A stretch of 64,000 nt of DNA. Source: Roseateles sp. GTDB taxonomy: Bacteria; Pseudomonadota; Gammaproteobacteria; Burkholderiales; Burkholderiaceae_C. Shown one piece after another: positions 16,041 through 24,520 of the stretch. A program made the position numbers and the translations under genes. Location of the stretch: positions 1-64,000 of the forward strand of contig JAEUPJ010000008.1 of assembly GCA_016790285.1 (NCBI GenBank), written 5' to 3'. The stretch's first letter is position 1. The number at the start of each line of letters is the position of its first letter. The notes beneath the pieces are model-generated. The model did no database searches. It was not told the DNA's origin and worked only from the letters and a program-made list of their open reading frames with translations.

Positions 16041-16078
16041 TTGCACTCGCATCGATGATTCGATAATAATGGAATCAT
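16041..16078 (+). promoter_or_regulatory. Probable arsR promoter and operator
   Basis: A perfect inverted repeat ATGATTC (16055-16061) / GAATCAT (16072-16078) brackets an AT-rich core and covers the arsR start codon. A -10-like GATAAT (16062-16067) and a -35-like TTGCAC (16041-16046, 15 bp spacing) would place transcription start within a few bases of the ATG. That suggests a nearly leaderless mRNA repressed by ArsR itself. Confidence 0.65.
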
Positions 16079-16403
16079 GGATGAAACAGCCGTCGTCAAG
16101 GCCCTCGCCGCCCTCGCGCAGCCGCTGCGCCTGCAGGTCTTCCGCGCGCTCGTGGTCGTGGGGGATGCGGGGCTGACGCCCGGCGCCATCCAGGAAGGCC
16201 TGGGCGTGGCCCCCGCCACGCTGTCCTTCCACCTGAAGGAGCTGGTGAACGCCGGCCTCGTCACGCAGGAGCGCGCCAGCCGCAACCTGATCTACCGCGC
16301 CCACTACGCACACATGAACGCCGTGCTCGGCTACCTCACCGAGAACTGCTGCCAGGGCGCCCCCTGTGCCGCGCCCGACGCTGCTGCGTCATGCGATTGC
16401 TGA
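16077..16403 (+). CDS. arsR: ArsR-family arsenite-responsive repressor
   Basis: A 108-residue SmtB/ArsR winged-helix repressor. The recognition helix region is VAPATLSFHLKELVNAGLV (about residues 45-63). The metalloid site is not in the DNA-binding helix as in plasmid R773 ArsR. Instead, a C-terminal cysteine set is present: Cys91, Cys92 and Cys97, plus Cys106 and Cys108. This resembles the Cys95/96/102 site of the Acidithiobacillus-type ArsR. It is the first gene of arsR-arsC-arsC-aqpS-arsH and presumably autoregulates through the palindrome covering its start codon. Confidence 0.93.
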   Translation: MDETAVVKALAALAQPLRLQVFRALVVVGDAGLTPGAIQEGLGVAPATLSFHLKELVNAGLVTQERASRNLIYRAHYAHMNAVLGYLTENCCQGAPCAAPDAAASCDC

Positions 16404-16416
16404 CCAGGAGAAGACC

Positions 16417-16911
16417 ATGCTAGTCAACACGTTCAACGTGCTCTTCATATGTACCGGCAACTCAGCCCGCTCCATCATGGCGGAAGGGCTGATGAACCAC
16501 CTGGGAGACCGCCGCTTCAAGGCCTACTCGGCAGGCAGCCATCCCACCGGCGTCGTCAACCCTTTGGCCTTGCAGACGCTGGCTTCGCTTCACGTGCCTG
16601 CCGATGGCTTCCGGAGCAAGCGTTGGGACGAGTTCGCCGTGCTTGGTTCGCCCATCATGGACTTTGTCTTCACCGTCTGCGACTCGGCCGCCGGTGAGGT
16701 CTGCCCCGTATGGCCAGGCCAACCCATGACGGCTCACTGGGGTGTGCCTGACCCCGCAGCGACGCAGGGCAGCGAGGCGGCGAGGCAGCAGGCCTTCCTT
16801 GACGTTGCCGTCACGCTGAAGCGGCGCATCGAGCTGCTTCTGGCGCTCCCACTTCCCAAGCTGGAGCCACTGGCGATCCAGCACGAGATCCAACAGATCG
16901 GCACACGCTGA
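16417..16911 (+). CDS. arsC: Arsenate reductase, low-molecular-weight phosphatase type (copy 1)
   Basis: A 164-residue arsenate reductase reducing As(V) to As(III) in the cytoplasm. The P-loop is CTGNSARS (about residues 13-20). Additional redox cysteines are in VCDSAAGEVCP, and DPA appears as the general acid region (WGVPDPAA). The ATG at 16417 has a strong AGGAGA ribosome site (16406-16411). Base composition and codon use (for example CTA, ATA-type and TGT codons) look less GC-rich than the following copy, which suggests separate acquisition. It lies 13 bp after arsR and 7 bp before copy 2. Confidence 0.93.
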   Translation: MLVNTFNVLFICTGNSARSIMAEGLMNHLGDRRFKAYSAGSHPTGVVNPLALQTLASLHVPADGFRSKRWDEFAVLGSPIMDFVFTVCDSAAGEVCPVWPGQPMTAHWGVPDPAATQGSEAARQQAFLDVAVTLKRRIELLLALPLPKLEPLAIQHEIQQIGTR

Positions 16912-16918
16912 GCATTCC

Positions 16919-17422
16919 ATGACCACTCACGTTCTCATCCTCTGCACCCACAACTCCGCCCGCAGCGTCCTCAGCGAAGGCATGCTCAACCACTGGGCCC
17001 AAAAGCTCGGCAAGGACGTCAAGGCCCACAGCGCCGGCAGTGCCCCGAGCGGCCGCCTCAACCCTTTCGCGCTCGAGGCCCTGCAGCAGGCGGGTGTCGA
17101 CACCACCGGCTACCGCAGCAAGAGCTGGGACGAGTTCACCGGCCCCGAGGCGCCGCCGCTGTCCATCGTCATCACCGTGTGCGACAGCGCGGCGGCCGAG
17201 CAGTGCCCGGTGTTCTTCGGCGGCCAGGGCCAGCCGGTCAAGGTGCATTGGGGCTACCCCGACCCGTCCAACGCCGAGGGCGGCGACGAAGGCAAGCGCC
17301 GCGCCTTCGAGCTGACGCGCCAGGCCATCGGCTACCGCATGCTGCAGTTGCTGGCACTGCCGCTGGCCTCCCTCACGCCCGCCGAGCTGCAGCAGGCTCT
17401 CATCGCCATCGCACGGACCTGA
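16919..17422 (+). CDS. arsC: Arsenate reductase, low-molecular-weight phosphatase type (copy 2)
   Basis: A 167-residue paralogue of the upstream arsC. The P-loop is CTHNSARS at residues 9-16, the resolving cysteines lie in VCDSAAAEQCPVF, and the general acid loop is WGYPDPSN. Codon use is GC-rich like the genome, unlike copy 1. Two tandem, clearly divergent arsC genes in one operon suggest either different electron donors (thioredoxin or glutaredoxin) or stepwise acquisition. Only 2 bp separate its stop from the aquaporin start. Confidence 0.94.
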   Translation: MTTHVLILCTHNSARSVLSEGMLNHWAQKLGKDVKAHSAGSAPSGRLNPFALEALQQAGVDTTGYRSKSWDEFTGPEAPPLSIVITVCDSAAAEQCPVFFGGQGQPVKVHWGYPDPSNAEGGDEGKRRAFELTRQAIGYRMLQLLALPLASLTPAELQQALIAIART

Positions 17423-17424
17423 GC

Positions 17425-18102
17425 ATGGGGCTGCCCCGCCAACTGCTCGCCGAGGCCCTCGGCACCGCGCTGCTGCTGGCCGTCGTCATCGGCTCGGGCG
17501 TCATGGCCGAGCGCCTGGCCGGCGGCAACGTCGCGCTGGCGCTGCTGGCCAACACGCTGGCGACGGTGGGCGGGCTGTACGTGCTCATCGAGGTGTTCGG
17601 GCCCGTCAGCGGTGCGCACTTCAACCCGGCGGTCAGCGCCGTGATGGCCTGGCGTGGCGCGCTGCCGGCGGGCGCGCTGCTGCCCTTCATCGTCGCGCAG
17701 CTGGCCGGCGCCTGGCTCGGCGCGCTGCTCGCCCACGCGATGTTCGACATGACGCTGCTGCAGGCGTCCGCCAAGCTGCGCACCGGCACCGGCCAATGGG
17801 TGGCCGAAGCGGTGGCCACCTTCGGCCTCGTGCTCGTCATCCTGCGCGCGCCGGCCTCCCGCGTGGCGGCGATGGTGGCGGCCTACATCGGCGCGGCCTA
17901 CTGGTTCACCGCGTCCACCTCGTTCGCGAACCCGGCCGCCGTGTTCGGGCGCATGTTCAGCGACAGCTTCGCCGGCATCGCACCGGCGAGCGCCCCCGGC
18001 TTCGTCGTGGCCGAGCTGCTCGGCGCCGCGTTGGCGGTGGCGATGCATCGGCTGCTGGGCGGGCCGGCGCCGGCAAGCGGCACGAAGGCCACCCATGTCT
18101 GA
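17425..18102 (+). CDS. aqpS: Aquaglyceroporin-type channel, probable As(III) exit channel
   Basis: A 225-residue MIP-family channel with six membrane helices and two half-helix NPA boxes: HFNPAVS in the first half and [12 protein letters not shown] in the second. The Arg after the second NPA box, part of the selectivity filter, is present. No ArsB or Acr3 efflux pump is encoded in the island. The arrangement matches the Sinorhizobium meliloti ars operon, in which AqpS conducts arsenite formed by ArsC out of the cell down its gradient. It starts 3 bp after arsC2 and overlaps arsH by 8 bp. Confidence 0.9.
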
Positions 18103-18826
18103 CCGCCTCTTTCCCGACGCCACGTTTCCCGCGCTGCGCGCCGAGCAGTTCGACGTGCCCACGCAGGCGCGGCTCACCGTGCCGGTGCCGTCGCAACACC
18201 GGCCACGGTTCCTGATGCTCTATGGCTCGCTGCGTGAACGCTCGTACAGCCGCCTGCTGACCTTCGAGGCCGCCCGCCTGCTGGAGGCGATGGGCGCGGA
18301 GGTGCGCCTCTTCAACCCCAGCGGCCTGCCGCTGCCCGACGACGCCCCCGAGACTCACCCCAAGGTGCAGGAACTGCGCGAGCTGGCGGCCTGGTCCGAA
18401 GGCATGGTGTGGTGCTCGCCCGAGCGGCACGGTGCCATGACCGGCATCATGAAGTCGCAGATCGACTGGATCCCCCTGTCCAGCGGCGCCGTGCGGCCCA
18501 CGCAGGGCAAGACGCTGGCCGTGATGCAGGTCTGCGGCGGTTCGCAGTCCTTCAACGCCGTCAACCAGATGCGCGTGCTCGGCCGCTGGATGCGCATGCT
18601 GACCATCCCCAATCAGTCCTCGGTGGCCAAGGCCTTCGCCGAGTTCACCGAGGACGGCCGCATGAAGCCCTCGGCGTTCTACGACCGCGTGGTGGACGTG
18701 ATGGAGGAGCTGTTCAAGTTCACGCTGCTCACACGCGACCTGGGGCCGTACCTCGTGGACCGCTACAGCGAGCGCGTGGAGAGCGCCGAGGCGCTGTCGC
18801 GGCGTGTGAACCAGCGCGCGATCTGA
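18095..18826 (+). CDS. arsH: ArsH NADPH-dependent FMN reductase, organoarsenical oxidase
   Basis: A 243-residue ArsH. Hallmarks are the flavodoxin-like phosphate loop [15 protein letters not shown], then [20 protein letters not shown] and [20 protein letters not shown]. The family oxidises trivalent methyl and aryl arsenicals to less toxic pentavalent forms using NADPH and FMN. It is the last gene of operon A; the gene overlaps aqpS and is followed by an intrinsic terminator at 18841. Presence of arsH already suggests exposure to organoarsenicals, relevant to the operon that follows. Confidence 0.96.
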
Positions 18827-18840
18827 ACCCACCCCCACCG

Positions 18841-18865
18841 AACGGGGCCGAGGCCCCGTTGTTTT
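18841..18865 (+). terminator. Rho-independent terminator of the arsR-arsH operon
   Basis: A perfect stem AACGGGGCC / GGCCCCGTT with a 2-nt GA loop (18841-18860), followed by GTTTT (18861-18865). It lies 15 bp after the arsH stop. It separates operon A from the marR-led operon B. Confidence 0.88.
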
Positions 18866-18875
18866 GGCCGATGTA

Positions 18876-18941
18876 GTTGCTATTGACAACCAAACACCCC
18901 TTCGCCACCATGCGCTCACTTCGTTGCTATTCGCATCCAAA
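18876..18941 (+). promoter_or_regulatory. Direct-repeat candidate operator in front of the marR-like gene
   Basis: Two near-identical 19-bp copies: GTTGCTATTGACAACCAAA (18876-18894) and GTTGCTATTCGCATCCAAA (18923-18941), starting 47 bp apart and differing at only three positions. The first contains TTGACA and a GTTG/CAAC dyad. The second ends on the A of the marR start codon. They look like paired binding sites for the MarR protein encoded next to them. Confidence 0.6.
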
Positions 18942-19432
18942 TGACCGACTCCTCCGCCGGCAGCCTGCTGCGCGAAGTGGCCCGCATGTACACCCGCGCC
19001 CAGCGCGTGGTGGCCGACTGCTGCCGCACCACCAGCACCCAGTGCCACCTGCTGACCGAACTCGGGCGCTCGGGGCCGTTGCCGCTGTCGGAGCTCGGCA
19101 CGCGGGTGAGCCTGGAGAAGAGCTGGGTGTCGCGCGCGGTGGAGGCCATGGCAGCCCGTGGGCTGGTGAGCAAGGTGCCGAACCCGTCCGACGCAAGGAG
19201 CTGGCTCGTCACGCTCACCGCCGACGGCGAACGCACCGTGCATGAGCTGAACCAGACCCTCGACGAGCACGCGGCCCAACTCCTCGCGTCCCTGAACGAG
19301 CGCGAACGCGCCGCCGTCGAGGCCTCCCTGCTGACGCTGCTGAAGGCGCTGCGCGAAGACCCGGCAGCCACGTGCTGCCTGCCGCCCACGGCGCGTCAGG
19401 AACCGACCCGAGAGAGCAAACCATGTTGTTGA
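18941..19432 (+). CDS. Cysteine-rich MarR-family regulator of the organoarsenical-type operon
   Basis: A 163-residue MarR winged-helix protein: LSELGTRVSLEKSWVSRAVEAM is the recognition-helix region (about 50-70) and PNPSDARSWLVTLTADG the wing. It is unusual in cysteines: DCCRTTSTQC near residue 27-35, TCC near 147 and a terminal CC. This suggests thiol-based sensing of a trivalent metalloid or oxidant, which is inference. The ATG at 18941 abuts a direct-repeat element. The last 10 bp overlap the next gene, so regulator and fusion enzyme are co-translated. Confidence 0.85.
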   Translation: MTDSSAGSLLREVARMYTRAQRVVADCCRTTSTQCHLLTELGRSGPLPLSELGTRVSLEKSWVSRAVEAMAARGLVSKVPNPSDARSWLVTLTADGERTVHELNQTLDEHAAQLLASLNERERAAVEASLLTLLKALREDPAATCCLPPTARQEPTRESKPCC

Positions 19433-21273
19433 ATGCATCCATTGCCCTGCGCCCGGCGGCTGCGGCCGACTGGCCCGCCATCGAAGCCCTGCTGCGCGCC
19501 CACCAGCTGCCCACCGAGGGCGCGCGCGAGCACCTCGCCACCACCCTCCTGGCCACGCAAGGCAGCGAGGTGGTGGGCTGCGCCGGCGCCGAGGTCTACG
19601 GCAGCGTCGCGCTGCTGCGCTCCGTCGCCGTGGCACCGGGCCTGCACCGGCAAGGCATCGGCCGGCTGCTGGTGGAGCGCCTGCTGCACGAAGCCCGCGC
19701 GCGCGACATCGCCACCCTGTACCTGCTGACCGTCACCGCCCCCGAGTACTTCGCCCAGTTCGGCTTCAAGCGCCGCAAGATGGACGAGGCCCCGGCCGCC
19801 CTCAAGGCCTCCGCCGAGTTCCAGGGCGCCTGCCCGGCTTGCGCGGCACTGATGTCGCTGACGCTGCGCGAGGCGCCGGCCGTTGACCCGGGCCTGCCGG
19901 TGGCCGTGCTCGGCGCCGGCCCCGTGGGGCTGGCGGCCGTGGCCCAGCTGCTGGAGCGCGGCCTGCCGGTGGTGGCGCTGGAGGCAGGTGCCTCGGTCGG
20001 CGCCAACCTGCTGGACTACGGCCATGTGCAGCTCTTCTCACCCTGGCAGTTCAATGTCGACCCGGCCATGGCCCGGCAGCTGGCGCCCACCGGCTGGCAG
20101 GCGCCCCCGGCAGGCGGCCTGCCCCGCGCCGCCGACGTCGTCACGCAGGTGCTGCAGCCCTTCGCCGCACTGCCCGCCGTCGCCGAGGTGCTGCGCCTGG
20201 GCGCACGCGTGACGGCCATCAGCCGCGAGGGCTTGGACAAGGTCAAGAGCGCCGGCCGCGAGCAGGCCGCCTTCCTCGTGCAGTACACCCAGGGTGGCGA
20301 GGCCCGCACGCTGCGCGCCCGCGCCGTCATCGACGCCACCGGCACCTGGAACCAGCCCAACCCGCTGGGCGCCAGCGGCCTGCCCGCCCAGGGCGAAGCC
20401 GAGGCCGCCGCGCAGGTGTTCTACGGCATCCCCGACGTGGCCGGTGCCCTGCGCTCGCGCTATGCCGGCAAGCACACGCTGGTGGTCGGCGCCGGGCACT
20501 CGGCGGCGAACGCGCTGCTGGCGCTGGCCGAGCTGGCCGCTGCCGCGCCCGGCACGCGCCTGGCGTGGGCGGTGCGCTCGGCGTCGCTGCAACGCGTGTT
20601 CGGGGGCGGCAGTGCCGACGCCCTGCCCGCCCGCGGTGCGCTCGGCGCCGCGCTGCGCCGGCTGCGCGACAGCGGCACGCTGGCCTTTCATGGCGGCCTG
20701 CGCATCACGCGCCTCGAGCGCGTGGGCGCGCAGCTGCGCGTGAGCGGGCTGGACACGCGCCAGCAGCCGGTGGTGATCGAGGGCATCGACGAGATCATCT
20801 GCGCCACCGGCCAGCGGCCCGACCTGCAACTGGCCAGCGAGCTGCGGCTGCGGCTGGACCCGGCACTGGAGTCGACCGAAGCCCTGGGCCCGCTGATCGA
20901 CCCCAACGTGCACAGCTGCGGCACGGTGCGCCCGCACGGGCACCGCGAGCTCGCCCACCCCGAGCCCGGCTTCTACACCGTCGGCGTGAAGAGTTATGGC
21001 CGCGCGCCGACCTTCCTGATGGCCACCGGCTTCGAGCAGGCCCGCTCGGTGGTGGCCGCGATCGCCGGCGACCTCGCCGCGGCTGACCGCGTGGAGCTGG
21101 AACTGCCCGAGACCGGCGTGTGCTCGACCGACCGCGGCGATGAAGCCGAGGCCGGCGGCGGCCCGAGCCGCTGCTGCGGGGCCGCCCCCACGGCAGCAGC
21201 AGCGACGGCCGTGGCCGTCGCGCTGCCGGCGCCCCCGGCCACCGCGGCGCGCGCCTCGCGCTGCTGCGGCTGA
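19423..21273 (+). CDS. ArsN2-like GNAT acetyltransferase fused to FAD/NAD(P)-binding monooxygenase-like flavoprotein
   Basis: A 616-residue two-part protein. Residues 1-150 are a GNAT domain of the ArsN2 kind: RSVAVAPGLHRQGIGRLLV is the acetyl-CoA loop and APEYFAQFGFKRR the C-terminal strand, followed by a CPAC pair at 137-140. Residues about 157-575 form a flavoprotein with an FAD fold (AVLGAGPVGLAAVAQL) and a second dinucleotide fold (TLVVGAGHSAANALLAL), plus ICATGQRPDL, as in FMO/thioredoxin-reductase-like enzymes such as ArsO-type proteins. The C-terminal about 45 residues are an Ala-rich linker with two SRCCG repeats, potential metalloid ligands. ATG at 19423 matches the GNAT start. A role in modifying and oxidising an arsenical is inferred from context. 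Confidence 0.82.
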   Translation: MLLNASIALRPAAAADWPAIEALLRAHQLPTEGAREHLATTLLATQGSEVVGCAGAEVYGSVALLRSVAVAPGLHRQGIGRLLVERLLHEARARDIATLYLLTVTAPEYFAQFGFKRRKMDEAPAALKASAEFQGACPACAALMSLTLREAPAVDPGLPVAVLGAGPVGLAAVAQLLERGLPVVALEAGASVGANLLDYGHVQLFSPWQFNVDPAMARQLAPTGWQAPPAGGLPRAADVVTQVLQPFAALPAVAEVLRLGARVTAISREGLDKVKSAGREQAAFLVQYTQGGEARTLRARAVIDATGTWNQPNPLGASGLPAQGEAEAAAQVFYGIPDVAGALRSRYAGKHTLVVGAGHSAANALLALAELAAAAPGTRLAWAVRSASLQRVFGGGSADALPARGALGAALRRLRDSGTLAFHGGLRITRLERVGAQLRVSGLDTRQQPVVIEGIDEIICATGQRPDLQLASELRLRLDPALESTEALGPLIDPNVHSCGTVRPHGHRELAHPEPGFYTVGVKSYGRAPTFLMATGFEQARSVVAAIAGDLAAADRVELELPETGVCSTDRGDEAEAGGGPSRCCGAAPTAAAATAVAVALPAPPATAARASRCCG

Positions 21274-21275
21274 CG

Positions 21276-22493
21276 ATGGCCAGCGCCGGGCCGCGCGTCG
21301 TCGCCACGCTGGGCAGCGCCCAGACACTGGCCTGGGCGTCGTCGTACTACCTGCCGGCGATGCTGGCCCGGCCGATGGCGGCCGACCTCGGCGTGGCCGA
21401 GCCGACGGTGTTCGCGGCGTTCTCGGCGGCGCTGGTGGTGTCGGCCTTCGTCGGGCCGCAGGCGGGCCGGCGCATCGACCGCTGGGGCGGCCGCCCGGTC
21501 CTGATGGCCACCAGCGTCGGCTTCGCCCTGGGCCTGGCGATGCTCGCGCTGGCCAGCGAGCCGCTCGGCCTGTTCGCAGCCTGGCTCGTCATGGGCGTGG
21601 CGATGGGCAGCGGGCTGTACGAGGCGGCCTTCGCCTCACTCGTGCGGCTGTACGGGCACGGCGCGCGCAACGCCATCACCGGCATCACGCTGATCGCAGG
21701 CTTCGCCAGCACGGTGGGCTGGCCGTTGTCGGCCGCGCTGGAGCATGCCTTCGGCTGGCGCGGCGCCTGCTGGGCCTGGGCGGCGCTGCACCTGGCGGTG
21801 GGCCTGCCGCTGAATGCGTGGCTGCCGCGGGCCGTGGCGGCCGATGCGGCACCGGCGCCCATCACCCCATCGTCGCCACCGGCCGCCTCGCAGCCGCCCG
21901 CCGCCCATCCAGCGCCGCCACTGCGCAGCGCCGCGCTGCTGGCGTGGGTGTTCGCCGTGACCTGGTTCATCAGCACCGCCATGGCTGCGCACCTGCCGCA
22001 TCTGCTGAACGCCGTCGGCACCGCGCCCGGGGCCGTCATCGCCATCGGGGCGCTGGTGGGGCCGGCCCAGGTCGCCGGGCGGCTGCTGGAGTTCGGCCTG
22101 CTGCGCCGGCTGCACCCGCTGCTGTCCGCGCGCCTGGCCGCGCTCATGCACCCGCTGGGCGCCGTGCTGCTGGCCCTGGGCGGCGCCCCGCTGGCGGCGG
22201 TGTTCGCGCTGCTGCATGGGGCGGGCAATGGCATCCTGACCATCGCCAAGGGCACGTTGCCGCTGGCGCTCTTCGGCACGGCCGGCTACGGCCACCGCCA
22301 GGGCCTGCTGATGCTGCCGGCCCGGCTCGCCCAGGCCCTGTCGCCCTGGCTCTTCGGGCTGCTGCTGGCCCACCTCGGCGCCGGCGCGCTGTGGTGCTCG
22401 GCCGCACTGGCCCTGAGCGCGCTGGCGGCCCTGCTGTTCATCCACCCCCCGACGCCGGAGGCCCCGCTTGAAGATCCGCACCGCCACCCCTGA
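21276..22493 (+). CDS. Major facilitator superfamily exporter in the arsenical operon
   Basis: A 405-residue MFS protein with 12 predicted membrane helices. The opening AQTLAWASSYYLPAML and the loop 2-3 motif GPQAGRRIDRWGGRPVL identify the superfamily. A long Pro/Ala-rich cytoplasmic loop (about residues 185-215) divides the two halves. It starts 2 bp after the fusion gene and overlaps the next gene by 26 bp. By position it should export the product or substrate of the fusion enzyme. MFS arsenical exporters ArsJ, ArsK and ArsP-independent types exist, but I cannot place this protein in one of them from sequence alone. Confidence 0.85.
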   Translation: MASAGPRVVATLGSAQTLAWASSYYLPAMLARPMAADLGVAEPTVFAAFSAALVVSAFVGPQAGRRIDRWGGRPVLMATSVGFALGLAMLALASEPLGLFAAWLVMGVAMGSGLYEAAFASLVRLYGHGARNAITGITLIAGFASTVGWPLSAALEHAFGWRGACWAWAALHLAVGLPLNAWLPRAVAADAAPAPITPSSPPAASQPPAAHPAPPLRSAALLAWVFAVTWFISTAMAAHLPHLLNAVGTAPGAVIAIGALVGPAQVAGRLLEFGLLRRLHPLLSARLAALMHPLGAVLLALGGAPLAAVFALLHGAGNGILTIAKGTLPLALFGTAGYGHRQGLLMLPARLAQALSPWLFGLLLAHLGAGALWCSAALALSALAALLFIHPPTPEAPLEDPHRHP

Positions 22494-23004
22494 CGACGCC
22501 GCCGCCGTGGCCGCCATCTACGCGCCCATCGTGCAGCACACCGCCATCTCCTTCGAGACGGAGCCGCCCGACACCGCCGAAATGCGCAGCCGCATCGAGA
22601 AGACGCTCGCCCTGCTGCCCTGGCTGGTGGCCGAGGACGAGGCCGGCCACGTCTGCGGCTATGCCTACGCGAGCAAGCACCGCGAGCGCGCGGCCTACCA
22701 GTGGTCGGTGGACACCACCGTCTACGTGCGCGAGGACCAGCGCGGCCGCGGCGTGGGCCGGGCGCTGTACGCGCAGCTGCTGCCGCTGCTGGCCGGCCTC
22801 GGCTACTGCCAGGCCTTCGCCGGCATTGCGCTGCCCAATGCGGGCAGCGTGGCGCTGCACGAGGCGGTGGGTTTCGTGGCCCTGGGCGTGTACCGCGACG
22901 TGGGCTTCAAGCAGGGCCAGTGGCGCGATGTGGGCTGGTGGCAGAAGACGCTGAGCCGGCCCGACGCGCCCGAGCCACCGCGCCCCTTCAGCGCCCCGCG
23001 TTGA
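22468..23004 (+). CDS. PAT/ArsN1-type GNAT N-acetyltransferase
   Basis: A 178-residue acetyltransferase of the phosphinothricin acetyltransferase family, which includes ArsN1, the enzyme that N-acetylates the antibiotic arsinothricin. Diagnostic stretches are PDDAAAVAAIYAPIVQHTAISFET, YAYASKHRERAAYQWSVDTTVYV, the acetyl-CoA loop QRGRGVGRALY, and GFKQGQWRDVGWWQ near the C-terminus. Translation starts at TTG 22468 inside the MFS gene, so coupling is strong. Possible substrates are phosphinothricin, arsinothricin or methionine sulfoximine; position in an arsenic island favours arsinothricin. The end overlaps the convergent halogenase gene by 17 bp. Confidence 0.87.
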   Translation: MKIRTATPDDAAAVAAIYAPIVQHTAISFETEPPDTAEMRSRIEKTLALLPWLVAEDEAGHVCGYAYASKHRERAAYQWSVDTTVYVREDQRGRGVGRALYAQLLPLLAGLGYCQAFAGIALPNAGSVALHEAVGFVALGVYRDVGFKQGQWRDVGWWQKTLSRPDAPEPPRPFSAPR

Positions 23005-24520
23005 TCTGCTGGATCAGCGCCCGGTGCGCGGGCAGGTCGGCCACGGCGCGGTCGGCATAACGCTGGATCTTGGCGAACACCTTGGCGGCCTCGTCCGCGC
23101 GCGGGAAGTCGTCGCGGCCGGCGCTGAGGTCGGTGGCGAAGCCCATGCCGTACAGGATGTACTGGTAGTTGAAGAAGGCGAAGGTCTCGGTGTCGAGCAC
23201 GAAGTCGAAGCGCCCCGGCGGGCGCAGCCGCCATTCCTCCAGCAGGCCGGCCAGGCGCTCGGGGATGGTGGCGGGGTCGGCGTTGTCGCGCCAGAAGGGC
23301 TCGGGGCGCTGGCTCAGGCAGTAGTGCAGCTTCAGGAAGTTGATGATGTTCTCGAAGCGCGCGGTCATCAGCTCGTTGAAGCGCCGCGCAGGCGCGTGCA
23401 TGGGGCCGCTGTGCGGCAGCATCTCGGCAATCATGCCCACCGCCGCCTCGATGAGCACGAGGCCCGTGGCCTCCAGCGGCTCCAGGAAGCCGGCCGACAG
23501 GCCCACCGCGACGCAGTTCTTCACCCACTGCTGCTCGCGGTAGCCAGGGGCGAAGGGGATGCTGCGCAGGGGCAGGTCCTCGTGGCCCGCGCCGCAGTAG
23601 CGATGCAGGATCTCGGCCGCGCGCTCGTCGCTGACGTGGCTGCTGGAGTAGACGCAGCCCACGCCGCGCGCGCCGTTCAGGCCGATCTCCCACAGCCACC
23701 CCGCCTCGTGGGCCGTGGCGATGGTGCAGCTTTCCATGACGGCCTCGTCGCCCAGCGGCACCTTGCAGGCCAGGGCCCGGTCGGCGAAGAGCTGGCCGCG
23801 CGCCGACGTGAAGGGGCTGCCCAGCGCGCGCCCGATGAGCTCGGCGCGAAAGCCGCTGCAGTCGATGTAGAGGTCGGCCTCGAAGCGCTGCGCGCGGTCG
23901 GTGTCGATGTGGCCAATGACGCCCTGGTCGTCCAGCGTGACGGCGCTGACCGTGCCCTGCACATGCTGCACGCCCAGTTGAGCGGCGCGCTCGGCCAGCA
24001 GCCGCGCGAGCTTGATGGCGTCGAAGTGGTAGGCGTAGTTGAGCGGCGCCGTATAGGGCGCCTCGCCGGCGCGCCTGGGGGCACGGTGCGCAGCGGCCAC
24101 GCGGGCCTGCAGCGTCATGGCCTCGGCAAACGGTGCGCGGGCGGCGGGGTCCTGCAGCAGCCAGTAGGGCACGAGGTTGAGGTCCTCGGCGAAGAACGGC
24201 GCCTCGAAGGGGTGGAAGAAGCTGTGCTGGCGCCGCCCGTCGGGGGCGTGTGCCCAGTCGACGAAACGGATGCCCTGCTTGAGCGTGGCCGAGGTCGCGC
24301 GGATGAAGGCCGACTCGTCGATGCCGAGGTACTGCAGCGTGGTGCGGATGGTCGGGAAGGTGCCCTCGCCGACGCCGACGCTGCTGATGTCGGGCGACTC
24401 CAGCAGCGTGACCTCCAGGTGCGGGCGCTCCGCGAGCTTGAGGGCCTTGGCGAGGTAGGCGGCCGTCAGCCAGCCGGCCGTGCCGCCGCCGACGATGAGG
24501 ATGCGTCGCTTGGGAGTCAT
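22988..24520 (-). CDS. Flavin-dependent tryptophan-halogenase-like enzyme
   Basis: A 510-residue protein of the FAD-dependent tryptophan halogenase family, which chlorinates or brominates activated arenes using FADH2 from a separate reductase. The FAD site IVGGGTAGWLTAAYLAK is at the N-terminus. The catalytic lysine of PrnA (Lys79) is conserved in the ATLKQGIRF stretch. The second hallmark WxWxIP appears as WLWEIGL, with Gly for Pro. GLSAGFLEPLEATG is conserved. The ATG at 24520 overlaps the stop of the upstream VapC gene (ATGA), so the enzyme sits at the end of a toxin-antitoxin operon. No flavin reductase or biosynthetic partner is nearby, so the substrate is unknown. Confidence 0.9.
   Translation of the reverse strand: MTPKRRILIVGGGTAGWLTAAYLAKALKLAERPHLEVTLLESPDISSVGVGEGTFPTIRTTLQYLGIDESAFIRATSATLKQGIRFVDWAHAPDGRRQHSFFHPFEAPFFAEDLNLVPYWLLQDPAARAPFAEAMTLQARVAAAHRAPRRAGEAPYTAPLNYAYHFDAIKLARLLAERAAQLGVQHVQGTVSAVTLDDQGVIGHIDTDRAQRFEADLYIDCSGFRAELIGRALGSPFTSARGQLFADRALACKVPLGDEAVMESCTIATAHEAGWLWEIGLNGARGVGCVYSSSHVSDERAAEILHRYCGAGHEDLPLRSIPFAPGYREQQWVKNCVAVGLSAGFLEPLEATGLVLIEAAVGMIAEMLPHSGPMHAPARRFNELMTARFENIINFLKLHYCLSQRPEPFWRDNADPATIPERLAGLLEEWRLRPPGRFDFVLDTETFAFFNYQYILYGMGFATDLSAGRDDFPRADEAAKVFAKIQRYADRAVADLPAHRALIQQINAGR

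Follow-up and report, generated by a model that had tools for sequence, protein, structure and literature searches.

The ArsN1-family member PpArsN1 acetylates the antibiotic arsinothricin. The flavoprotein ArsV and the transporter ArsW are reportedly encoded in the order arsR-arsV-arsW, and ArsV is also said to occur beside arsK. Review passages that treat these genes assign methylarsenite oxidation to arsV of Paracoccus sp. SY, methylarsenate export to arsW, and methylarsenite efflux to arsK of Ensifer adhaerens ST2. ArsN2 is named as clade 2 in a section of PMC6465285 in which ArsN1 is the only one studied, and the corresponding part of PMC13163355, a 2026 paper, merely speculates on its substrate; both sections note a resemblance to N-acetylglutamate synthases. 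The subject of this analysis is an operon of Roseateles sp. (contig JAEUPJ010000008.1; the window is the 64,000-nucleotide stretch at positions 1 to 64,000) that brings counterparts of these proteins together behind a MarR-family regulator. Four genes on the + strand follow one another in the order marR, ArsN2::flavoprotein fusion, ArsK-related major facilitator superfamily (MFS) transporter and arsN1b; the reading frames bear out the 10-bp, 2-bp and 26-bp junctions reported in a first-pass annotation of this DNA, which are an overlap (marR/fusion), a gap (fusion/MFS) and an overlap (MFS/arsN1b), respectively. Our reading, which we hold to be on balance the probable one, is of a separate MarR-regulated operon for organoarsenical resistance that would sense, oxidize, acetylate and export its target. 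Its features are as follows, with scores referred to NCBIfam curated cut-offs for NF and TIGR models and to the gathering score for PF models.

18841-18865, + strand: terminator-like hairpin, AACGGGGCC-GA-GGCCCCGTT with a short T tail (fold z -2.30)
18874-18891, + strand: putative operator 1, TAGTTGCTATTGACAACC, a conserved dyad (18876-18890)
18883-18888: candidate -35 hexamer TTGACA, inside putative operator 1, with a weak -10 hexamer CACCAT at 18906-18911
18921-18938, + strand: putative operator 2, TCGTTGCTATTCGCATCC, 4 of 18 letters off operator 1
18941-19432, + strand: marR, MarR-family regulator (PF01047, 49.5 bits, cut-off 24.6)
19423-21273, + strand: fusion protein of 616 amino acids with both domains (single open reading frame, profiles, AlphaFold2 model)
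19468-19860, + strand: ArsN2 acetyltransferase domain, residues 16-146 (NF040501, 148.9 bits, cut-off 125)
19894-21123, + strand: flavin adenine dinucleotide (FAD)/NAD(P)H flavoprotein domain, ArsV-like, residues 158-567 (PF13738, PF07992)
21124-21270, + strand: disordered cysteine-pair tail, CCG ... CCG (alignment; predicted local distance difference test score, pLDDT, mostly <50)
21276-22493, + strand: ArsK-related MFS transporter (NF033733, 240.3 bits, cut-off 400 not reached)
22468-23004, + strand: arsN1b, ArsN1 family B, TTG start (NF040504, 254.5 bits, cut-off 210)

The operon is an ars-linked module. A scan of the genome collection gave at least 590 pattern matches, 584 of them encoding a relative, and the best 80 were kept, a choice that biases the set toward the window. 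A scatter of homologs mainly away from ars genes, which the first-pass annotation had named as evidence against its proposal, is not what these loci present: a diagnostic ars gene (the fused ArsN2 itself uncounted) lies in the fetched stretch of 69 of the 80, which span many phyla, compared with a single one of 20 controls, 15-kb regions from 20 genomes of the window's order, a contrast that overstates independence, related loci being included in the counts, and that sets the relatives against a different and narrower set of genomes. With ArsR also uncounted the linkage is 49 of 80, and of the 61 loci that are 15 kb or longer 57 have the diagnostic ars gene; ArsR lies within 1.5 kb of the flavoprotein in 45 of 80, and 39 of 80 have the start of an ArsK-like MFS gene under 900 bp downstream.

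It is against this background that a non-arsenical target, phosphinothricin or another amino-acid antibiotic, has to be judged, the operon then lying beside ars genes by chance or co-selection. The last GNAT, described from its translation as PAT/ArsN1-type, proves in the profile search that had been called for to pass the ArsN1 family B model at 254.5 bits; the phosphinothricin (PAT) model gives it 153 bits, with a cut-off of 300. The latter score shows how closely PAT is related to ArsN1, and the published likeness of ArsN2 to N-acetylglutamate synthases also speaks for such a target, but the curated models favor ArsN1b and relatives recur beside ars genes in several phyla, so that we consider this explanation very improbable. 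The closest solved relative of the arsN1b product is 5jtf (E 1.4e-53), deposited as PpArsN1 in PMC6465285. The TTG start of arsN1b corresponds to M at the same residue in 6 of 7 aligned relatives. Elsewhere in the same genome (G000:C24:65115-65618) there is a second GNAT, 43% identical to the window ArsN1b.

The joining of an ArsN2-like GNAT to a flavoprotein, likewise proposed from the translation, is upheld by one continuous frame in the window and by the ArsN2 score. The comparison was made on 111 distinct flavoprotein loci, that is, the kept relatives together with samples of the order (300 genomes) and of the family (250) and 4 plasmid loci, after five duplicates had been dropped. In 21 of these loci, window included (20 beyond the window), ArsN2 is in frame with the flavoprotein; the fusion is therefore no artefact of a single assembly. 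Damage affects two of these 21: L036 has the first ~35 residues of its fusion in a different frame, and L188 has breaks in both its flavoprotein and its MFS frame. Seven fetched relatives also have arsN1b downstream: in L167, L168, L172 and L177 it comes after an intact fusion, in L188 after the broken one, and in L182 and L183 after an unfused flavoprotein; thus, the complete window operon is shared. In a quick tree of 110 rows (L188 omitted) the main clade, nearly all Burkholderiales, comprises 19 fused and 7 single proteins (Shimodaira-Hasegawa-like approximate likelihood ratio test, SH-aLRT, 99), and a Roseomonas fusion (L072) sits apart from it. One locus encodes a triple fusion of ArsN2, flavoprotein and a carboxymuconolactone decarboxylase domain (L037, 6998-9193); a gene of the carboxymuconolactone-decarboxylase family is also annotated in the Priestia MarR locus.

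The same tree offers grounds for regarding the operon as an ordinary ars accessory cluster, in which the fusion would merely ensure co-expression of two halves that share no substrate: the flavoprotein would oxidize methylarsenite and antimonite, the MFS would export both, and ArsN1b would handle arsinothricin. Single flavoproteins without ArsN2 make up 88 of the 110 rows, within the main clade 7 of 26 rows either lost ArsN2 or never acquired it, so that fusion is not obligatory, and tight gene overlaps are common in operons. What makes us think this alternative unlikely, while taking it seriously, is the variety of the partnerships. ArsN2 is also fused in frame to a second, ArsN1/PAT-like GNAT in L027 (8631-9509, - strand), L189 (9525-10448, - strand), L190 (9986-10897, + strand) and L193 (8611-9492, - strand; its ArsN2 part scores 106.5 bits, below the cut-off of 125); it is adjacent to, and separate from, the flavoprotein gene in Duganella (L045) and in a metagenome-assembled genome of Chloroflexi (L042); and it is fused in Roseomonas, for which we claim no independent origin. 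These pairings recur beyond the needs of co-expression, though a single clade of ArsN2-flavoprotein fusions is not rejected (p = 0.204 in the approximately unbiased test, p-AU).

The flavoprotein half is probably best fitted by ArsV; the label used here, ArsV-like and not ArsV, is drawn from synteny and from a relative in Ensifer adhaerens, to which the window flavoprotein half is 50% identical over 432 aligned positions. That relative belongs to an arsR-flavoprotein-arsK triad: two Ensifer adhaerens plasmids, from two strains, carry the run GNAT-arsR-flavoprotein-arsK beside aioBA. Among annotated plasmids, those of Hydrogenophaga and Shinella have the order arsR-flavoprotein-MFS, one of Streptomyces has the flavoprotein and MFS genes as a pair, two genes downstream of a divergent arsR, and one of Dietzia has the run Acr3-ArsC-flavoprotein-ArsC. 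The order arsR-flavoprotein-arsK/MFS is thus found in relatives, and in the window marR replaces arsR as the adjacent regulator. Membership of ArsO was rejected for the flavoprotein (NF040505, 32.2 bits, cut-off 425). The transporter, which misses the ArsK cut-off, is filed as ArsK-related; it is 33% identical to the Ensifer ArsK, which itself passes NF033733 at 515.3 bits. Across the flavoprotein alignment the HSCG motif and Cys567 are invariant, and the cysteine-pair tail is common among relatives. An unannotated, phage-labelled record from faecal samples (MT835669.1, 12569-13726) encodes a protein 50% identical to the flavoprotein half; it is perhaps mislabelled or mobile DNA.

The AlphaFold2 model of the fusion (mean pLDDT 84.4) is confident for the GNAT domain and the flavoprotein core and disordered in the cysteine tail; structure-database searches found no solved relative covering the whole fusion. 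Its top Foldseek match is YpdA, a bacillithiol disulfide reductase (structure 7a76, three chains of which have template-modelling scores, TM-scores, of 0.80-0.83 by target), followed by matches that include N-hydroxylating monooxygenases; a profile search also placed 7a76 first, with thioredoxin reductases and flavin monooxygenases among its matches. This result tells against an oxidase and would suit a YpdA-like thiol-disulfide or other reductase that repairs thiols damaged by arsenicals, with a MarR that senses thiol oxidation in the manner of OhrR; MarR proteins with redox cysteines are known. The fold by itself cannot separate oxidase from reductase, and flavin monooxygenases were matched in the same structure and profile searches. 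YpdA, moreover, carries a cysteine in its FAD motif, whereas the window motif, GAGPVG, has none at that place. Considered together with the strong ars linkage, this leaves a repair reductase, in our estimation, quite improbable.

The putative control region lies between arsH and marR. The marR gene had been thought to begin at 18876; that start, a TTG at 18876/18877, was rejected because homologs start at the ATG at 18941, which is most likely the true start, and because 18876-18890 is an exact conserved dyad. The second putative operator follows the first by 47 bp and ends 2 bp before the marR ATG. The motif GTTG-N7-CAAC is exact in 21 of 21 distinct marR regions, against a mean of 0.035 in first-order resampled sequence, and occurs 3 times in 300 kb of control DNA. 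The distance between the paired dyads is 47 bp in 20 of 22 regions (L034 and L170 in this set are one contig) and 46 and 48 bp in the remaining two; in L192 the first copy is degenerate and differs at 8 of its 18 letters. Among the 111 flavoprotein loci, 20 of the 23 that have MarR carry the exact dyad, as do 6 of the 88 that lack MarR; for a stricter form, GTTG-N3-TTGACAAC, the counts are 14 of 23 and 0 of 88, relatedness inflating both contrasts. The three MarR loci that lack the exact dyad are Bacillota, and one of the six in the other class, L024, has a weaker MarR match. The arsH-marR hairpin is GC-rich, and a similar hairpin (at least 4 T of 8) is found in 13 of the 21 upstream regions of marR (resampled mean 0.24). 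The marR operon is accordingly worded here as a predicted separate unit and not as the tail of the ars operon, with a promoter of its own beyond a terminator-like hairpin. Within its own genome GTTGCTATTNACANC occurs with at most one mismatch at 3 places; since 2 of them lie before this marR, the regulon looks local, and a wider one was rejected on the showing of just one further place.

The window MarR has seven cysteines (Cys27, 28, 35, 145, 146, 162 and 163), of which Cys27, 28, 35, 145 and 146 are kept in 22 of 22 aligned MarR rows, all close relatives; the ArsR/SmtB model NF033788 gives it 21.2 bits, with a cut-off of 55. Of the 250 genomes in the family sample, 19 have this MarR, at 20 places counting the window, and other ars markers are present in 20 of 20 of these regions, those of L183 being the flavoprotein, MFS and ArsN1b only; in the order sample it was found in 4 of 300 genomes, window included. 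Of 69 matching plasmid records the analysis covered 10, mostly the best ones and not a random sample.

MarR homologs in three phyla keep company with changing sets of ArsN1, ArsN2, ArsV-like, ArsO-like and MFS genes. The double acetyltransferases of L027 and L193, both from the window's order, each have MarR and two exact dyads upstream. On six Deinococcus plasmids a more distant MarR stands ahead of arsN2, in one of them with a small open reading frame between; an ArsO-like gene is next in two, and four have an ArsN1a-like stretch upstream, which in L222 is split in two. Of the Deinococcus marR-arsN2 loci, L164, L222 and L223 have exact dyads 48 bp apart, and L224 has dyads with one mismatch each. 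Deinococcus ArsN2 is fused to DUF6428 (PF20001) in L162 (8429-9439) and L163 (8652-9641), and two further Deinococcus loci have DUF6428 as a stand-alone gene close by. Arenimonas has the order MarR-ArsN1a-like-ArsV-like-MFS, with one dyad before marR and another before arsN1a; Pseudomonas sp. XWY-1 has MarR-ArsN1a-like and an exact dyad. Brevibacillus and Paenibacillus have MarR-ArsV-like with ArsN1a-like and ArsO-like genes (each in 2 of 3) and no dyad, and Niallia has MarR-ArsN1a-ArsV-like-ArsR-arsenic transporter. The Pseudomonas ArsN1a-like stretch (L228, 4045-4521; 52% identity), flanked by marR and an FAD oxidoreductase gene, is missing from the gene table of its record, a table known to be incomplete.

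These associations suggest a larger proposal, plausible to us and put forward tentatively: that this MarR founds a class of arsenical sensor outside ArsR, that its regulon is a mobile kit against organoarsenical antibiotics, and that ArsN2 acetylates alongside oxidation. The sensor class would be marked, from Deinococcus to Pseudomonadota, by a thiol site of the form CC-x6-C and an operator of paired GTTG-N7-CAAC dyads; the kit would consist of ArsN1 and/or ArsN2, an ArsV-like or ArsO-like enzyme and an MFS transporter; and the fusion would reveal the job of ArsN2 to be acetylation of an amino-bearing arsenical in step with its oxidation.

A number of observations pull the other way, against the operon reading as well as its extension. 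A strict scan of the control region for a sigma-70 promoter and a terminator gave neither, the -10 hexamer being poor. The term ArsV-like is a matter of synteny and of the Ensifer relative. Three fused loci (L035, L037 and L038/L175) show neither MarR nor an exact dyad; MarR control is therefore not obligatory. The exact dyad is absent in the Bacillota MarR-flavoprotein loci L058, L063 and L080, in Niallia and in Priestia (L225), where ArsR is near the MarR relative and a diagnostic ars enzyme is missing. The cysteines vary at a distance: the Bacillota MarRs examined are without the third, one of the CC pair is kept in Deinococcus gobiensis and grandis (L223, L224) and in L027, and L193 keeps only the third cysteine and neither of the pair. 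Two MarR relatives lie away from recognized ars genes, L227 of Bradyrhizobium betae (31%; no CC motif and no exact dyad) and L194 (~40% over part of its length).

The preferred reading, a MarR-regulated operon for organoarsenical resistance, may nevertheless be spelled out step by step, its gene content making for a coherent succession of sensing, oxidation, acetylation and export. The target would be an organic, probably amino-acid-like and at least partly trivalent arsenical, of which arsinothricin-type antibiotics and methylarsenite are examples. The MarR-family repressor would sit on the two dyad operators that flank its own promoter until a trivalent arsenical, or an oxidant that the arsenical generates, bound Cys27, 28 and 35 and released it from DNA; the C-terminal cysteine pairs may form part of the arsenical-binding site. 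The ArsV-like half would use NAD(P)H and O2 to convert R-As(III) to R-As(V), the ArsN2 half would acetylate an amino group of that molecule or of one related to it, and ArsN1b would acetylate arsinothricin itself; the MFS transporter, ArsK/ArsW-like, would export the product. What the sequence itself establishes is the gene set, a fusion that is conserved, linkage to ars genes, dyads kept ahead of marR and cysteines kept among close relatives; promoter, terminator, repression, the MarR ligand, the activities and substrates of both fusion halves and the cargo of the MFS are inferred.

Upstream, the operon adjoins an ars operon that does end in arsH, as the first-pass annotation had it.

16077-16403, + strand: arsR, ArsR/SmtB metalloregulator of the preceding ars operon (NF033788, 60.5 bits, cut-off 55)
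16417-16911, + strand: ArsC-like low-molecular-weight phosphatase-type protein (PF01451; TIGR02691, 75.3 bits, below the cut-off of 174.3)
16919-17422, + strand: second ArsC-like protein (PF01451; TIGR02691, 63 bits, below the cut-off of 174.3)
17425-18102, + strand: aquaporin, AqpS-like, of the ars operon (PF00230; the start given is that of the open reading frame)
18095-18826, + strand: arsH (TIGR02690, 408.9 bits, cut-off 292.25)

This ars operon (16077-18826) has the aquaporin and neither Acr3 nor ArsB; a search of the genome with one Acr3 and one ArsB query, run without a positive control, found none. The next gene downstream of arsN1b (~23001-24500, - strand) we take, from its translation alone, to resemble a flavin-dependent tryptophan halogenase.

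The description of the locus as an undescribed module needs to be divided. The ArsN2-flavoprotein fusion and the MarR control look new; the flavoprotein and ArsK-like MFS pair resembles the published ArsV with ArsK or ArsW and is probably already of a described type, as far as the available portions of that literature go. The presence of two acetyltransferases, which had been singled out as what looked new, is less so than the MarR with its dyads and the recurring company of ArsN1, ArsN2 and flavin monooxygenase; ArsN1b, ArsN2 and ArsV/ArsK-type pairs are known kinds. Searches of the open-licence PMC literature turned up neither an ArsN2-flavoprotein fusion nor a MarR that responds to arsenic in the passages covered, which falls short of proving absence, many arsenic papers lying outside that literature; nor were the paired-dyad marR control region and the recurring MarR-centered gene set found in that literature. 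ArsN2 is named in many ars operons, and its fusion partners, an ArsV-like flavoprotein and ArsN1-like acetyltransferases, narrow its likely substrate to amino-bearing organoarsenicals, a guess that can be tested with one purified protein. A MarR arsenical sensor with a defined operator would, if real, constitute a second regulator family beside ArsR and be usable as a biosensor for organic arsenicals, and recurrence of the module would suggest arsenic-containing antibiotics as a common selective force.

Set beside the known systems, the locus resembles ArsV with ArsW or ArsK in having a flavoprotein followed by an ArsK-like MFS, with its Ensifer adhaerens relative in just such a triad, and differs in that the flavoprotein is fused to ArsN2, that arsN1b follows, and that marR and not arsR stands in front. 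With ArsO it shares the broad flavoprotein superfamily, and ArsO and a flavoprotein of the window type can share one ars locus, but the window protein scores far under the ArsO cut-off. Its last gene is like that of PpArsN1 in passing the ArsN1 family B model and in having 5jtf as first structure match; unlike it, this gene belongs to a marR-led operon with a second, fused acetyltransferase. The N-terminal domain of the fusion is an ArsN2 by its profile, joined here to a flavoprotein, whereas ArsN2 is a separate small protein on a Burkholderia plasmid and on some Deinococcus plasmids. Like the ArsR-type sensors, the regulator is cysteine-rich and governs, by prediction, an ars-linked unit, and its cysteines, a CC pair plus one more, are reminiscent of the CgArsR site formed by Cys15/16 and Cys55 (PMC11868830); it differs from them in belonging to the MarR family, not to ArsR/SmtB, and in its paired dyads.

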